Assembly (NCBI RefSeq): GCF_002243345.2 | Contig: NZ_CP022655.2 | Coordinates: forward strand, 4,156,501 to 4,220,500 | Source of the DNA: Paenibacillus sp. RUD330 | GTDB lineage: Bacteria > Bacillota > Bacilli > Paenibacillales > Paenibacillaceae | Direction of reading: 5' to 3' | Length of the DNA: 64,000 nucleotides | Part shown: one piece after another, positions 7,722-64,000 of the stretch | Layout: each line of letters begins with the position of its first letter | Position numbering within the stretch: position 1 is the first letter of the stretch | Position numbers and translations under genes: made by a program | The notes under the pieces: model-generated | What the model saw: only the letters and a program-made list of their open reading frames with translations | What the model was told of the DNA's origin: nothing | Database searches by the model: none

Positions 7722-8765
7722 TCAGCGGCCCGTGGAGCTTCTCCGGCTCATTCCGACAGCCGGCGCGCCGGGATAGGAGAAGGGTTCGGGCCTTCTCGGT
7801 CCGGATGCTCCGCCGCCGCCTTCGCCGGACGCCGGACGAGCTCTCGCTTCGCGCAGGATATAGAGCGGCCGTCCTTTGGCCTCCTCATAGATCCGCCCCA
7901 CATATTCGCCGAGAACGCCAAGCATGGCGAGCACGAAGCCGTTGAACAGGAGCATGACCGCCATCATCGACGCCCATCCCTTCATCGTGCCGGAGGTGAA
8001 CAAGGCCTGGCACAGGACGACGACCAGATAGACGAATCCCGTCGCCGACAGCAGCGCTCCCGCGTAACCCGCAACCTTGAGCGGCTTGGTCGAGAAGGAA
8101 GTAATCCCGTCCAGGCACAGCTTCACCATCCGCTTCAGCGGGTATTTCGTCTCTCCGGCAAATCTCTCGTCGCGCTCGTACTCCAGCGCAGTCTGGCGGA
8201 AGCCGACCCAGCTGACAAGCCCGCGGACGAAGCGGCTGCTCTCGTGCAGCCGCTTCATCTGCTCCAGCACCTGGCGGTCCATCAGGCGGAAATCTCCAGT
8301 GTCGACCGGAATGGATATATCCGTCGATGCCCGCAGAACGCGGTAGAACAGACTGGCGGACCATTTCTTGAACGCGGTCTCTCCGCTTCTGCTGACGCGC
8401 TTGGCATACACGACGTCGTAGCCCTCCCGCCACTTCTCCAGCATCGGGACGATCAGCTCGGGAGGATCCTGCAGATCGGCATCGATGATGACGACGGCAT
8501 CCCCGCCGGCATGGTCCATGCCGGCCGTGATCGCGATCTGATGGCCGAAGTTGCGCGAGAACTCAAGCAGCCGCACCGTAGGATCCTTGCGGGACCAATC
8601 CTCGAGCATCGCCCCGGAAAGATCGCGGCTGCCGTCGTTGACGAAGATCAGCTCGTAGCGGCAGCCGATGCCCTCCATCACGCCTTTCAGACGAAGATAC
8701 GTTTCCGGCAGCACCTCTTCTTCGTTGTACACGGGGATGACCACCGATACTTGAACCTGGCTCAT
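7722..8765 (-). CDS. YkcC-like family 2 glycosyltransferase (polyprenyl-phosphate sugar transferase)
   Basis: The 347-residue membrane protein has an N-terminal GT2 catalytic domain: VSVVIPVYNEEEVLPETY, FVNDGSRDLS, IIDADLQDPPE (metal-binding acidic motif) and a YAKRVSRSGET stretch. Two transmembrane helices follow at about residues 233-300, then a basic, Gly/Ser/Pro-rich tail. This is the architecture of DPM1/GtrB-like enzymes that load a sugar onto undecaprenyl phosphate on the cytoplasmic side. The next gene upstream in the same operon, 13 bases away, encodes a PMT-type transferase. The arrangement matches Bacillus ykcC-ykcB. Together they probably glycosylate an envelope component; the acceptor is unknown. 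Confidence 0.88.
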   Translation of the reverse strand: MSQVQVSVVIPVYNEEEVLPETYLRLKGVMEGIGCRYELIFVNDGSRDLSGAMLEDWSRKDPTVRLLEFSRNFGHQIAITAGMDHAGGDAVVIIDADLQDPPELIVPMLEKWREGYDVVYAKRVSRSGETAFKKWSASLFYRVLRASTDISIPVDTGDFRLMDRQVLEQMKRLHESSRFVRGLVSWVGFRQTALEYERDERFAGETKYPLKRMVKLCLDGITSFSTKPLKVAGYAGALLSATGFVYLVVVLCQALFTSGTMKGWASMMAVMLLFNGFVLAMLGVLGEYVGRIYEEAKGRPLYILREARARPASGEGGGGASGPRRPEPFSYPGAPAVGMSRRSSTGR

Positions 8766-56681: not shown

Positions 56682-58634
56682 CTATTCTTCCTTGAGCGCC
56701 GCCACGATCCGCTCCGCCAGGGCAGAGCCGATGCCGAGCGGCTTGAATTCCTCGGGAGATGCTTCGCGGATCTTCTTGAGGGAGCCGAAATGCTTCAGCA
56801 GCTGCTTGCGGCGCTTCTCCCCGATGCCGGGAATGGAGTCCAGCGTCGATTGGACCATGGACTTGCCCCGCTGCTCGCGGTGGAACGTGATCGCGAAGCG
56901 ATGGACCTCGTCCTGGATGCGCTGCAGCAGATAGAATTCCTGGCTGTCGCGCGGCAGCATGACCGGCTCCGGCGGATCGCCGACCATAAGCTGCGCCGTC
57001 TTGTGCTTGGCATCCTTCACGAGTCCGCATACCGGAACCTGCAGGCCGAGCTCGTTCTCGAGAATGTCGATCGCCGCGCTGATCTGCCCTTTGCCGCCGT
57101 CCACCACGATGAGATCGGGAAGCTCCAGCCCTTCCTTGAGAACCCTCTCGTACCGCCGGCGGATGACCTCCCGCATCGTCTCGTAATCATCCGGCCCTTG
57201 GACGGTCCTGACCTTGTACTTGCGATACTCCTTCTTGTCGGGCTTGCCGTCGATGAAAACGACCATGGCCGATACCGGGTTGGTTCCCTGGATGTTGGAG
57301 TTGTCGAACGCCTCGATGCGCCGGATCGTCGTCAAGCCGATGGATGCGGCCAAGCCCGAAGCGGCTTTGACGCTGCGCTCCTCATCGCGCTCGATCAGCT
57401 TGAATTTCTCGTCGAGCGTCACCTTGGCGTTGCCTTCCGCCATGCCGACGACCTCGCGCTTGCGCCCGCGCTGCGGGATATGGACCTTGACCTTGAGCCA
57501 GCTCTGGAGCGAGGAGCGGATCTCCTCCGCATGGGATCCGGCCGCAGGCTCGCCGCCGTCGTCCGCTGCCGGCACCGATGCCTCCACGCTTCCTGCGACT
57601 TCCGGCACCGATGTCTCCGCTTCTCCTGCGCCGCTCTGCCGCCCGCGGCCAGCCGCTTCCCCGGCGGCACCTTCTTCCGCAGCCGCTCCGGCATGGAGCT
57701 CGCCCGGCGGCACCGGCAAGAGGATTTCCTTCGGCAGAGCCGGATTGTCGCTGTAGTATTGGGTGACGAACGTCATGAAGTCGTCATAAGCCTCGCCGTA
57801 ATAAGGGAAGGACGTCGTATGGCGCTCGATCAGCTTGCCGCTGCGCATATACAGGATCTGCACGCACATCCACCCCTTGTCGGTGGCATAACCGAACACG
57901 TCGCGGTCGAGCGCGTCGGCGAGCGTGATCTTCTGCTTCTCCATGACGGCATCGATCGCCGTGATCTGATCGCGGTATTCCTTGGCGCGCTCGAACTCCA
58001 TCGACTCCGCGGCCTCCAGCATTTTGCGCTGCAGCTCCGCCTTGACCTCGTCCTGGCCGCCATTCAGGAAGCGGGCGATCTCCTGCACCATGGAATCGTA
58101 CGTCTCCTGCTCGACCGTGAATTCGCAGGGCGCGAGGCACTGGCCGAGATGATAGTACAAGCACACTTTGTCGGGCAGCGTGTTGCATTTGCGAAGCGGA
58201 TACAAGCGGTCCAGCAGCTTCTTGGTCTGCTGCGCCGCGTAGGCGTTCGGATACGGGCCGAAATATTTGCCCTTGTCCTTCACGATCCGCCGGGTAACCT
58301 CCAGCTTCGGATGCTTCTCATTCGTAATCTTGATATAAGGAAAGGATTTGTCATCCTTCAGAAGCACGTTGTAGCGGGGATGATACTGCTTGATCAGGTT
58401 GCACTCCAGAATGAGCGCTTCCATGTTGCTTGCCGTCACGATATATTCGAAGTCCCGGATTTCCGAGACGAGACGCTGCGTCTTGCCGTTATGGGTTCCG
58501 TTGAAATAGGAACGGACACGATTTTTCAGCACTTTGGCCTTGCCGACATAGATGATGGTGCCTTCGCCGTTCTTCATCAGATAACAGCCCGGCTGGTCGG
58601 GAAGGAGCGCTAGCTTCCCCTTGATGGGATCCAT
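56682..58634 (-). CDS. uvrC: Excinuclease ABC subunit C
   Basis: The 650-residue nuclease makes the two incisions of nucleotide excision repair. Domains in order: GIY-YIG (residues 9-90: [26 protein letters not shown]), a cysteine cluster region ([21 protein letters not shown]), UVR/UvrB-binding motif (about 205-240), the RNase H-like C-terminal nuclease ([11 protein letters not shown] with aspartate) and tandem HhH ([18 protein letters not shown]). An Ala/Gly/Glu-rich stretch of roughly 60 residues (genome 57520-57710) is inserted before the nuclease domain. The start at 58634 ([12 protein letters not shown]) is supported by AAAGGTGG; the longer upstream frame lacks homology. Confidence 0.96.
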
Positions 58635-59110: not shown

Positions 59111-59145
59111 GGCCTATTTACACTTTGCAGCAGAATATGGTACTT

Positions 59146-59167
59146 TATTTCTATCTTTTTAGAATTA
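59146..59167. promoter_or_regulatory. ArsR operator A
   Basis: TATTTC-N10-GAATTA, one mismatch from the TATTTC-N10-GAAATA consensus of the three copies downstream, 21 bases before the arsR start. Confidence 0.6.
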
Positions 59168-59188
59168 TCGAAGAAAGGCGGGGATGAC

Positions 59189-59470
59189 ATGGTCGAGGAC
59201 AACGAGGGAGTCAAGCAAGCGGTCAAAGTCTACAAGGCGCTCGGAGAACCGACCCGCATAAAAATCGCCATGCTGCTTATGGAGGAAAGGACGCTCTGCT
59301 GCTCCGACATCAGCGCCAAGCTCGAATCCGTCGCCGGCTCCACTCTCTCGCATCATCTCAAGCAGCTCACGGAAAGCGGCCTGCTGCAGCTGCGGAAGGA
59401 CGGAACCTACATCTATTACAGCGTCAACAAGGAAGTCGCCCGCAAGTATGCTCCTTATTTGCTGGAGTAG
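59189..59470 (+). CDS. ArsR/SmtB-family regulator
   Basis: The 93-residue winged-helix repressor begins MVEDNEGVKQAVKVYKALGEPTRIKIAMLL and has the recognition helix in VAGSTLSHHLKQLTESGLLQLRKDGTYIYYSVN. The usual metal motif ELCVCDL on helix alpha3 is replaced by TLCCSDI (C37, C38), so a thiol or metal ligand remains possible. AAGGCGGGG lies before the ATG. It precedes an MFS transporter gene, and four matching inverted repeats lie in and upstream of the unit, so it most likely represses itself and the transporter. The inducer is unknown. Confidence 0.92.
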   Translation: MVEDNEGVKQAVKVYKALGEPTRIKIAMLLMEERTLCCSDISAKLESVAGSTLSHHLKQLTESGLLQLRKDGTYIYYSVNKEVARKYAPYLLE

Positions 59471-59484
59471 TTTTTCGCGGCTAT

Positions 59485-59506
59485 TATTTCGATATTTATA
59501 GAAATA
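59485..59506. promoter_or_regulatory. ArsR operator B
   Basis: TATTTC-GATATTTATA-GAAATA, a full match to the repeated pattern, 14 bases after the arsR stop. Confidence 0.7.
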
Positions 59507-59598
59507 ATTCGGTTCAGCTTCTATTTCGGCTGGTCCGGCAAGCCATTTGTCCGATCGCATAGACCGCTCGCATCGTATTCATCGTTTTTTTCGGCTTA

Positions 59599-59620
59599 TA
59601 TTTCGATAATTATAGAAATA
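59599..59620. promoter_or_regulatory. ArsR operator C
   Basis: TATTTC-GATAATTATA-GAAATA, a full match, in the middle of the arsR-MFS spacer. Confidence 0.7.
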
Positions 59621-59797
59621 ATAAGCTCTATTCTTTTAGGCCCGGGAAAAACAGCTTCATTATTGCGGCTGCCTACCCTGCCGAGATGGCTTTCCGTTCC
59701 GGCTAACCTCTTGCCGGGCCACTTTCAGCCCAGCTTTCGTTCTTCAGAGCGGAAGTGCTCTTCGGTTCAACTCGTTTAGCAGAGCTTTTGCGTTTAT

Positions 59798-59819
59798 TAT
59801 TTCGATATATTTAGAAATA
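59798..59819. promoter_or_regulatory. ArsR operator D
   Basis: TATTTC-GATATATTTA-GAAATA, a full match, directly before the ribosome site of the MFS gene. The rest of 59471-59846 holds no gene and no obvious terminator. Confidence 0.7.
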
Positions 59820-59846
59820 TAAAAGAAAATCAAGGAGCTGGAGAGA

Positions 59847-61079
59847 ATGTCAACGAGTTGGAAGTGGAAAATATACATGCTTGCCGTCGTAAGCTTCCTG
59901 GTCGGCACTTCGGAATACATCATCGCCGGGATTCTGGATCAAGTGGCGGACGACATCGGTGTGTCGCTTGCCGCAGCCGGCCAGCTGATCACGGTCTACT
60001 CCCTGGCTTATGCATTCGGCACCCCGTTCCTGCTCGCCGCGGCGGCCAAGGCGGACCGCAAAAAGCTCATGATTTATTCCCTCGCCATATTCGCCGCCGG
60101 CAACTTCGCCGCGCTTGCCTTCACCGGATACGGAGCGCTGATCGGCTCCCGCATCATTCTGGCGCTGAGCAGCGGCGTCTTCATCGTCACCGCTCTGACC
60201 GTCGCCTCCAAGCTCGCTCCGTCCGACAAGCAGGGCAGCGCCATCGCGACGCTCGTCATGGGCTTCAGCACCGCGCTGATCATCGGGGTGCCCTTGGGCA
60301 GGCTTGCCGCTTCCGCGTATGACTGGCATCTGGTGTTCGGCGCGATCGGCCTGCTTGGCCTGCTCGCCATCCTCCTCATCCTCTACGCGATTCCCCGGAC
60401 GGAGGGGGAGCGCCCCATTCCGCTGCGGGATCAGGCCAGACTGCTCGCCGACCCGAAAATCGCCGTCGGCCTGCTCATTACGTTTTTCTGGATCGGCGGT
60501 TATTCCATCACCTATACCTACATCTCCCCCTTCCTCCTCGATATAACGGGACTGAACGAAAGATGGGTGAGCATCGGGTTGTTCGCGCTCGGCATCGCCA
60601 GCTTGATCGGCTCCAAGCTCGGAGGCTTCGGCACGGACCGATGGGGCTTCTCCCGCACGCTGGTCGGAGGCATGATCCTCCACTCGATCTTCCTCCTGCT
60701 CATCTCCCTGTTCGCCCATTCGGCGGCTCTCATCTTGCCCCTCCTCATGCTGTGGTCGTTGTCCGCCTGGTCGTCGGGACCGACCCAGCAGTACCACCTC
60801 ATCACGCTCGCACCCGGAGCCACGAGCATGATGCTGAGCCTCAACAGCTCTGTGCTCCAGCTCGCCATGGCTGCAGGAGCGGGCATCGGCGGCTTGATCG
60901 TCGAGCGTTCCTCTCTGGCCGCCACCAGCTGGATCGGCGCCGGAGCCGTCGCGGTTGCGGCGCTGATCGCGGCCGCATCGTTCGGCTTCCTCAGCCCGGC
61001 GGCCTCTAGGCGCAAGAAGGCAGCCATGCTGGCTGCAGGCGCCGGCATGAAGGATCTCGGATGGGATGACGCCGACTGA
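59847..61079 (+). CDS. MFS efflux transporter (DHA1 type)
   Basis: The 410-residue protein has 12 predicted helices and DHA1/AraJ-like features: MLAVVSFLVGTSEYIIAGILDQVADDIGVS, AGQLITVYSLAYAFGTP, ADRKKLMI (loop 2-3) and the helix-5 motif MGFSTALIIGVPLGRLA. It probably exports drugs, sugars or amino acid derivatives by proton antiport. AAGGAGCTGGAGAG precedes the ATG. The arsR gene upstream and the four operators indicate derepression by a ligand of that regulator. Confidence 0.9.
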   Translation: MSTSWKWKIYMLAVVSFLVGTSEYIIAGILDQVADDIGVSLAAAGQLITVYSLAYAFGTPFLLAAAAKADRKKLMIYSLAIFAAGNFAALAFTGYGALIGSRIILALSSGVFIVTALTVASKLAPSDKQGSAIATLVMGFSTALIIGVPLGRLAASAYDWHLVFGAIGLLGLLAILLILYAIPRTEGERPIPLRDQARLLADPKIAVGLLITFFWIGGYSITYTYISPFLLDITGLNERWVSIGLFALGIASLIGSKLGGFGTDRWGFSRTLVGGMILHSIFLLLISLFAHSAALILPLLMLWSLSAWSSGPTQQYHLITLAPGATSMMLSLNSSVLQLAMAAGAGIGGLIVERSSLAATSWIGAGAVAVAALIAAASFGFLSPAASRRKKAAMLAAGAGMKDLGWDDAD

Positions 61080-61401: not shown

Positions 61402-62286
61402 TTATCCCTCCACGGTTTCTTTATTCCGCTGCGCGGTTTTCCATTCCACGAGACTTTTCGCGCCAAGCGTCACCAGCGCCAGCATCATCAGCAGCGAAGC
61501 CACGGCAAAGGATGCCGAGAACTGATACTCGTTGTATAGTATTTCCACATGCAGAGGCAGGGTGTTCGTTTCCCCGCGGATATGTCCGGATACGACCGAT
61601 ACGGCGCCGAACTCTCCCATGGCCCTCGCGTTGCAGAGCACGATGCCGTACAGAAGGCCCCATTTGATGTTGGGAAGCGTAACGTTCCAGAAGATGCGGA
61701 ATCCCTTCGCCCCAAGCGTGGCGGCCGCTTCCTCCTCCTGCGTGCCCTGGGCCTGCATGAGGGGGATCAGCTCTCTGGCCACAAAAGGAAAGGTCACGAA
61801 CATCGTCGCGAGCACGATGCCTGGAGTCGCAAATACGATTTGCAGATTATGCTCATCCAGCCATGGGCCGAGATAACCTTGGGCGCCGAAGAGCAGCAGG
61901 AAGATGAAGCCCGCGATGACGGGCGACACCGAGAACGGCAGGTCGATCAGCGTCACGAGCAGGTTTTTGCCGCGGAAGCTGAACTTGGTTACGAGCCAGG
62001 CGGCCGCAACGCCGAAGACCGCGTTCAAGGGCACCGCGATGACGGCTACGAGCAGCGTCAGCTTGAGGGCAGCCACGGCGTCGGGATCAGTCAGGGCGCT
62101 GATATACACATCCCAGCCCCGCTTCATGCCTTCGATGAAGACGGTGAGAAGCGGCAGCAGGACGATCAGCGCGAGGAAGACGAAGGCGATGCCGATGAGC
62201 AGCCATTTGACGGCTCTCGGCTCGCTTACGGGCTTCGCCCGGACAACGGCCTTGGCGGACGATCGGGAAGTTACGGTACCGGCCAC
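61402..62286 (-). CDS. cysW: Sulfate ABC transporter permease CysW
   Basis: The 294-residue permease has six helices and the EAA loop [46 protein letters not shown] (quoted in parts), by which it contacts the ATPase. The sulfate-specific ending [29 protein letters not shown] is conserved. It starts with GTG after GGAGG. It pairs with CysT to form the membrane channel. A basic N-terminal extension of about 25 residues precedes the first helix. Confidence 0.95.
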
Positions 62287-62298
62287 AGGGCATTCCTC

Positions 62299-63132
62299 CT
62301 ATCGCGACAGCGCGCGCCTGCCGGCCCGCCACTGGATGTAATTGATGACGAGCAGCATGGCGAACGAGATGACGAGCAGCACGAGCGCGATCGCCGTTGC
62401 CTGCTCCAGCTCGAACGACTCCAGCTTCGTCATGATCAGCAGCGGAGTGATCTCCGTGCGCATCGGCATGTTGCCGGAGATGAAGACGACGGAGCCGTAT
62501 TCGCCGATGCCCCGGGCGAACGCAAGCGCGAAGCCGGTCAGGAGCGCCGGCGTCAGCTCCGGCAGCACGATGCGCAGGATCGTGCGCCATCTTCCGGCTC
62601 CCAGCATGACGGCGGCCTCTTCGACCTCGGCGTCGAGATCCTCCAGTACGGGCTGGACGGTGCGGACGATGAACGGCAAGCCGATGAAGATCAAGGCGAT
62701 CGTGATGCCCAGAGGCGTGAAGGCCACCTTGATTCCAAGCGGCTCCAGCCATTTGCCGACCCAGCCGTTAGGCGCGTAGATGGCCGTCAGGGCGATGCCG
62801 GCGACTGCGGTCGGAAGCGCGAACGGCAGGTCGACGAGGCTGTCCAGGAACTTCCGGCCCGGAAACGAGTAGCGTACCAGCACCCATGCGACGATGAAGC
62901 CGAACACGACGTTGATGACCGCCGCCGCCAGCGAAGTCAGCAGGCTGATGCGGTAGGAAGCCATGACGCGGGGAGCGGTCACCGTCGACCAGAATTCCCC
63001 CCAGCTGAGCTCCGCCGTCTTGAGCAGGACGCAAGACAGCGGAATCAGCACGATGATGCACAGGTAAAAGACGGTGATGCCCATCGACAATCCGAATCCG
63101 GGTAAAATGCTCCGAGTGCGGGAACCTTTCAT
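62299..63132 (-). CDS. cysT: Sulfate ABC transporter permease CysT
   Basis: The 277-residue permease has six helices, the [35 protein letters not shown] coupling loop (quoted in part) and the sulfate-type [24 protein letters not shown] ending. It partners CysW, 12 bases downstream. The gene follows the sulfate-binding protein gene by 32 bases in the same operon. Confidence 0.95.
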
Positions 63133-63164
63133 GTGAAGTCAGCTCCTGTATCGTCCAGAACCTT

Positions 63165-64000
63165 TTACTTGGATCCCGGCGTGTAGATTTCGTCAAACGT
63201 TCCGCCGTCGGCGAAATGCTTCTTCTGCGCTTCGGCCCAGCCGCCGAAGTCCTTGTCGATCTGGAGCAGGTCAAGCTCCTTGAATTTGTCCTTGTACTGC
63301 TCCGCGATCGTCTTGTTGATCGGACGGTAGAAATTGTCGGCGGCGATCTTCTGGCCTTCGTCGCTGTACAGATACTTCAGATATTCCTCGGCGACCTCGC
63401 GGGTGCCCTTCTGGTCCACGACCTTGTCGACGACGGCTACCGGAGGCTCCGCAAGCACGCTGAGCGAAGGATAGACGATTTCGAACTTGTCCCCCAGCTC
63501 CTTCTGGGACAGGAAGGCCTCGTTCTCCCATGCGAGCAGGACGTCGCCGATGCCGCGCTCCGTGAACGTCGTCGTCGCGCCGCGCGCGCCGGAGTCGAGC
63601 ACCGGAACGTTCTTGAACAGCTGCTTCATGAAATCCTTCGTCTTGGCTTCGTCGCCGCCGTCCTGCTTGGAGGCGTAGCCCCATGCCGCCAAATAGTTCC
63701 AGCGCGCGCCGCCGGATGTTTTCGGATTCGGCGTAATGACCTCCACGCCCGGCTTCACGAGATCGTTCCAGTCCTTGATGCCCTTCGGATTGCCCTTGCG
63801 GACGAGGAAGACGATCGTGGACGTGTATGGAGCGCTGTTGTCCTCGTACTTCGAGCTCCAATCCTTGTTGATCAGCCCTTTGTCGGCAATGGCGTCGATA
63901 TCGTAGCCGAGAGCCAAGGTGACGACGTCGGCCTTGAGGCCGCCGATGACGGAGAGCGACTGCTTGCCGGAGCCGCCATGCGACTGCTTCACCGTGACTT
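63165..64000 (-). CDS. sbp: Sulfate/thiosulfate-binding protein, 5' end outside the window
   Basis: The partial gene runs off the right edge; the start lies beyond 64000. The 278 visible codons give the C-terminal part of a periplasmic-type sulfate-binding lipoprotein: [35 protein letters not shown], then [50 protein letters not shown] and [17 protein letters not shown] (quoted in separate parts). Sulfate is the expected ligand, delivered to CysT-CysW. No ATPase gene (cysA) follows cysW in this operon, so the energising subunit must be encoded elsewhere. Confidence 0.95.

Follow-up and report, generated by a model that had tools for sequence, protein, structure and literature searches.

The genome of Paenibacillus sp. 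RUD330 carries what is probably an ArsR-type autorepressor/exporter pair, in which the palindrome TATTTC-N10-GAAATA stands before the regulator gene and three times between it and the downstream MFS gene. The pair itself is of a known kind, an ordinary control circuit common to many related soil bacteria; what is unusual is a lineage-specific gain of two operators, since, judged by comparison with its relatives, this genome has acquired two spare sites together with about 300 bases of DNA. The features discussed below lie in a stretch of 64,000 nucleotides (the window):

59117..59122, plus strand: TTTACA, candidate -35 element for arsR, from the sequence and a family word before the arsR-proximal site
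59138..59146, plus strand: TGGTACTTT, candidate extended -10 element for arsR, with TACTTT at 59141-59146, from the sequence and the family T/G
59146..59167, plus strand: S0, arsR-proximal palindrome, one mismatch, with family conservation before arsR
59189..59470, plus strand: arsR-type regulator gene, 93 aa, by HTH_5, HTH_metalloreg and fold, with Cys37-Cys38 as its only cysteines
59485..59506, plus strand: S1, first spacer palindrome, 14 bases past the arsR stop and preceded by a T tract
59507..59797, no strand assigned: DNA from S1 to S3 with S2 inside it, without counterparts elsewhere except for the T-tract/operator module
59599..59620, plus strand: S2, second spacer palindrome, exact, with a T tract included in the module shared with S1
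59798..59819, plus strand: S3, MFS-proximal palindrome, 49 bases upstream of the MFS start
59818..59823, plus strand: TATAAA, candidate -10 element for the MFS gene, starting on the last two bases of S3
59847..61079, plus strand: MFS transporter gene, 410 aa, DHA1/SotB-like (MFS_1, 146.1 bits)

The first-pass annotation had reported three exact sites and a fourth at 59146 with one mismatch, and motif searches of both the window and the genome bear this out. S1, S2 and S3 are the only exact copies of the palindrome in the 5,572,653-base genome, and S0 is one of 15 more places that match with a single mismatch; the 14 elsewhere compare with nine for the backwards control and are thus near chance. 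Within the window, matches at up to two mismatches number five, against a shuffle mean of 0.73, and five were reached in none of 100 shuffles; the fifth, at 8143 with two mismatches, is unrelated. The window repeat search also returned a 12-base repeat (D2), which we took as chance. The description of the four sites as equal operators does not hold, because S1, S2 and S3 agree pairwise at 19-21 of 22 bases, whereas S0 agrees with them at 17-18 and is the least symmetric, with 14 of 22 self-complementary positions compared with 18-20 in the others. The S1 and S2 modules, T tract included, are 87% identical over 39 bases.

When named genomes were scanned with the regulator, 221 relatives emerged; the best 80, nearly all from Cohnella or Paenibacillus, were kept. 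In all of these best 80 of 221 the palindrome (up to two mismatches) stands both ahead of arsR and in the spacer that separates arsR from the MFS gene. Each gene thus normally has one site, corresponding to S0 at the arsR promoter and S3 at the MFS gene; because these 80 are the closest relatives, the agreement is partly shared ancestry. Fourteen more loci came from further relatives (59 genomes searched, 14 matching at E 1e-20, the window's own included), giving a set of 95 loci, the window and 94 others, in which L090 repeats L041. A site upstream of arsR (up to two mismatches, within 150 bases) is present in 92 of the 94 other loci, missing in L095 and L097, and a downstream site (up to one mismatch) in 91, missing in L014, L095 and L096; L014 has its downstream site at two mismatches. 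L095 has no site at all and L096 weak sites only, and in both the MFS gene is more than 1.1 kb away. An MFS relative lies downstream on the same strand in 95/95 loci, more than 600 bases off in L027, L095 and L096. As controls, reversed 400-base regions contained a site in 0 of 95 cases, and shuffling the 100 bases after arsR produced one in 0.16% of trials. Conserved as they are at both genes, the operators are very probably functional, and the palindrome is probably the docking site of the neighbouring ArsR-type repressor, a pattern that supports the earlier proposal that these sites are operators for that protein.

The regulator has the winged helix-turn-helix domain of the ArsR/SmtB family by Pfam HTH_5 (39.0 bits, cut-off 22) and NCBIfam HTH_metalloreg (71.1 bits, cut-off 55), and its structure model, a confident one (mean pLDDT 88.4), matches structures of ArsR, CadC, CzrA, HlyU, PagR, SqrR and RexT. 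The best sequence matches among solved structures are the metalloregulators CadC and Lmo1102 (1u2w, 9t6t), which have the same fold; however, where such proteins read ELCVCDI the window's protein reads TLCCSDIS, so that their ELCVCD box is TLCCSD here, and the C-V-C-D box of the alpha3 arsenite/cadmium sensors gives way to C-C-S-D. An alpha5 His/Asp site is also absent from the 93-aa protein. The motif DXHX10HXXE/H on alpha5, by which PMC8960804 describes zinc sensors such as SmtB and CzrA as defined, is not found either, with no His or Asp after residue 71 of the 93. The regulator may bind arsenite or metal. The first-pass reading of CC in place of CVC was correct: Cys37 and Cys38 sit where helix alpha3 begins, modelled as residues 38-44, and are kept in 94/95 and 90/95 loci, respectively, and the pair as such in 89/95, the loci without it being L095-L100. 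An extra cysteine at position 63 occurs in 73/95 relatives, with serine in the window. In three of the loci without the pair, L098, L099 and L100, the regulators have L-C-P in place of C-C and the palindromes are kept at both genes, so the layout does not depend on CC; these three also offer a natural comparison for the role of the cysteines.

RexT of Nostoc (7TXM-7TXO; PMC8960804) likewise combines an ArsR fold with adjacent cysteines in these columns, where alpha3 begins, and its redox pair Cys40-Cys41 aligns with Cys37-Cys38, the RexT numbering being inferred from the two cysteines. The three other catalytic residues of RexT, placed around its reactive cysteine, are absent, as Arg61, Thr68 and Asn77 correspond to Thr61 (90/95), Leu68 (77/95) and Tyr77 (94/95) in the window's protein. 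RexT also controls thioredoxin, whereas the window's regulator adjoins the MFS gene and uvrC, with no thioredoxin gene, and the account in PMC8960804 ties the vicinal disulfide to Nostocales, judging from 105 RexT-cluster sequences beside thioredoxin genes. The sensor may use thiol chemistry, but by the tests of residues and of neighbours it is no RexT.

The transporter is nearest to the SotB/Cmx-type DHA1 exporters, yet it reaches no listed NCBIfam cut-off, its best score being 207.8 bits of the 400 set for Cmx/CmrA (NF033135), and we therefore leave its substrate unnamed; calling it a chloramphenicol exporter was rejected on that score. It matches the sugar efflux transporter 6kkl (E 2.1e-34). 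Upstream of the pair is uvrC (56682-58634, minus strand; TIGR00194, 673 bits, cut-off 285), and 61402-63992 on the minus strand holds the sulfate ABC transporter genes cysW and cysT, then a sulfate-binding-like protein recognised by eye from its translation. In L061 (1-6276, Cohnella cholangitidis) the MFS gene is in two frames, recovered as two tblastn pieces, possibly through a frameshift or sequencing error. By gene order, rather than by operator or sequence, the pair can be likened to PyeR-PyeM-XenB of Pseudomonas aeruginosa, described in PMC7950407 as an ArsR-family autorepressor directly before an MFS gene, in an operon raised by HOCl; unlike the pair in the window, that system is a three-gene operon and is also under MexT (PMC7950407). 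Another ArsR protein, CdsR, likewise has a peptide MFS gene in its vicinity (PMC11009283). We found no description of the present ArsR-MFS pair in the literature searched, which was covered in part by titles and the beginnings of abstracts.

The two conserved sites are accompanied by different predicted promoter elements. Before arsR the window has TTTACA, a gap of 18 bases and TACTTT, and T and G are the commonest bases in the family at 9 and 8 bases before the arsR-proximal site, which begins where this conserved promoter ends; a TTTAC, TTGAC or TTTAT word lies 20-32 bases upstream of the arsR-proximal site in 88/92 loci, compared with 2/91 for the last spacer site. Conversely, TATAAA at the offset seen in S3 accompanies the last spacer site in 74/92 loci, the arsR-proximal site in 2/93 and the extra spacer sites in 0/7. 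A T tract (at least five T within 16 bases) precedes the MFS-proximal site in 79/92 loci, and no recognisable -35 was found for the proposed MFS promoter. A consensus promoter scan of the plus strand of the region returned none; it misses the proposed arsR promoter too, because that promoter scores below the scan threshold.

The spacer between arsR and the MFS gene is 376 bases long (59471-59846) and contains S1, S2 and S3. It had been called empty of genes, as we also find: its longest plus-strand open reading frame is 38 aa, starting at 59663, and the listed minus-strand frames are mechanical. The remark that so long a spacer is more than an ArsR repressor needs is likewise upheld by the family, in which the spacer has a median of 72 bases (quartiles 70 and 84, range 60 to 1344, 95 loci) and, at up to one mismatch, one site in 86 loci, two in five, three in the window and none in three. 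More than one spacer site thus occurs in six loci, namely the window, L087, L088, L035, L054 and L100; their last sites carry TATAAA in five and TATAAT in L100, and the nearest approach among the seven extra sites is TATAAC in L087. The first spacer site of other loci commonly lies 13-15 bases after arsR, the distance of S1, and the last lies mostly 54-67 bases from the MFS start, compared with 49 in the window. Some long spacers hold a single site. In L036, L047, L063, L065 and L080 (one clade) and in L091 this site keeps a distance of 56-59 bases to the MFS start, but in L041 (and its copy) and L027 it lies near arsR, with 214 and 661 bases left before the MFS gene begins; in L027 (3282-3958) the spacer is 676 bases, with its one palindrome beside arsR.

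L087 and L088, the window's nearest relatives in the genus, each hold a pair of sites, 37 bases apart, in a spacer of 98 bases; the window's lineage therefore probably already had a second spacer site when S2 and the DNA in between were added. On a quick tree of the MFS proteins (92 of 95 rows, leaving out L095 and L096, with the MFS gene over 1 kb away, and the duplicate L090, and using the first piece alone of the L061 protein, unmended), the multi-site label needs three changes, as forced by the starred branches, and these could also be one gain and two losses. The DNA beyond the sites has few counterparts. A search of the genome at E 0.001 gave no other copy of the spacer. Among seven other genomes of the genus there is no conserved insert, and four match parts that include the S3 operator; bases 59795-59844 are 88% identical to the MFS-proximal region of one same-genus genome (G004). 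Among 294 other genomes of the family, with two candidates scored per genome, eight match the insert, seven at the S2 module and one over 29 bases. We accordingly rejected a mobile or repeated insert, there being no second copy in the genome and the relatives matching site modules and a single 29-base stretch.

We think it quite likely that the locus is a dedicated, self-repressing ArsR/SmtB-type regulator and exporter pair with lineage-specific extra operators. We infer repressor binding from the conservation of the sites, and the derepression, the two promoters and the role of the extra sites are proposed as follows. Without signal, a dimer of the 93-aa protein would occupy the 22-base palindrome; at S0 it would cover the end of the -10 and the expected arsR start site, and at S3 a stretch that begins shortly before the TATAAA of the MFS gene and runs into it. 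A signal, probably a thiol-reactive compound, an oxidant or a soft metal, would be sensed through Cys37-Cys38 and would release the repressor from DNA, so that both genes are expressed. S1 holds the position of the relatives' first spacer site and S3 that of their MFS-proximal site, with S2 a copy of the S1 module; S1 and S2 are the lineage-specific extra copies. As these two have no conserved promoter element, their likeliest role, if any, would be to strengthen repressor binding locally and to stop arsR transcripts before they reach the MFS gene. Counting against this account are the missing -35 at the MFS gene, the plus-strand scan without a promoter, the exceptions L041, L027, L095 and L096, the near match TATAAC behind an extra site of L087, TATAAT behind the last site of L100, and the layout kept without CC in L098, L099 and L100.

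The first-pass annotation had offered looping, extra promoters or a small RNA as reasons for the layout, and none of these is favoured. If dimers on S0-S3 bridged and held the DNA between them, the long spacer would be functional, and in its favour the window has four sites, with S1-S2, S2-S3 and S1-S3 separated by 114, 199 and 313 bases, near whole turns at 10.5 bases per turn (10.86, 18.95 and 29.81); the spacings of the other multi-site loci (93, 94, 37 and 122 bases; 8.86, 8.95, 3.52 and 11.62 turns), however, show no common phase. A single spacer site suffices for 86 of the 95 loci, repressors of the ArsR/SmtB type generally act as plain dimers, and we regard a loop as very improbable. 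The spacer could instead be its own regulated transcription unit (a small RNA, a leader or a tiny protein) driven from S1 or S2, which also strikes us as improbable. Just one of 100 shuffles folds as well as the spacer (z -2.54), although the palindromes themselves contribute to this, and the 38-aa frame could be such a product; but TATAAA is absent from every extra site, the insert is unconserved in the seven other genomes of the genus and is matched in the 294 of the wider family, with two candidates scored per genome, at the site module and one 29-base stretch only, the scan of the spacer found no terminator, and the sole Rfam match is at chance level (E 0.44).

A more serious competitor, which we nonetheless hold to be somewhat less probable than its opposite, is that S1 and S2 are neutral leftovers of duplication and insertion, with S0 and S3 alone mattering. 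The prevalence of single-site spacers, the loss of the promoter element at S1 and S2 and the lack of relatives of the intervening DNA all agree with it; what speaks against it is that the 12 half-site bases are exact in both S1 and S2 while the surrounding DNA has diverged, and that extra sites recur in separate branches of the quick tree, with its three label changes.

We speculate, with considerable doubt, that a vicinal-cysteine thiol switch, built on the ArsR fold independently of RexT, controls an exporter across the Paenibacillaceae, and that the extra spacer operators of some lineages act as roadblocks against read-through from arsR, so that the exporter is uncoupled from it and a single operon becomes two units, each tuned separately. 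At arsR and the MFS gene, TATTTC-N10-GAAATA provides a clean, predictable regulon motif for a widespread ArsR-MFS pair. Loci with one, two or three spacer operators form a natural series for measuring the effect of operator number, and with the conserved CC pair one can ask whether ArsR proteins outside cyanobacteria sense through adjacent cysteines.
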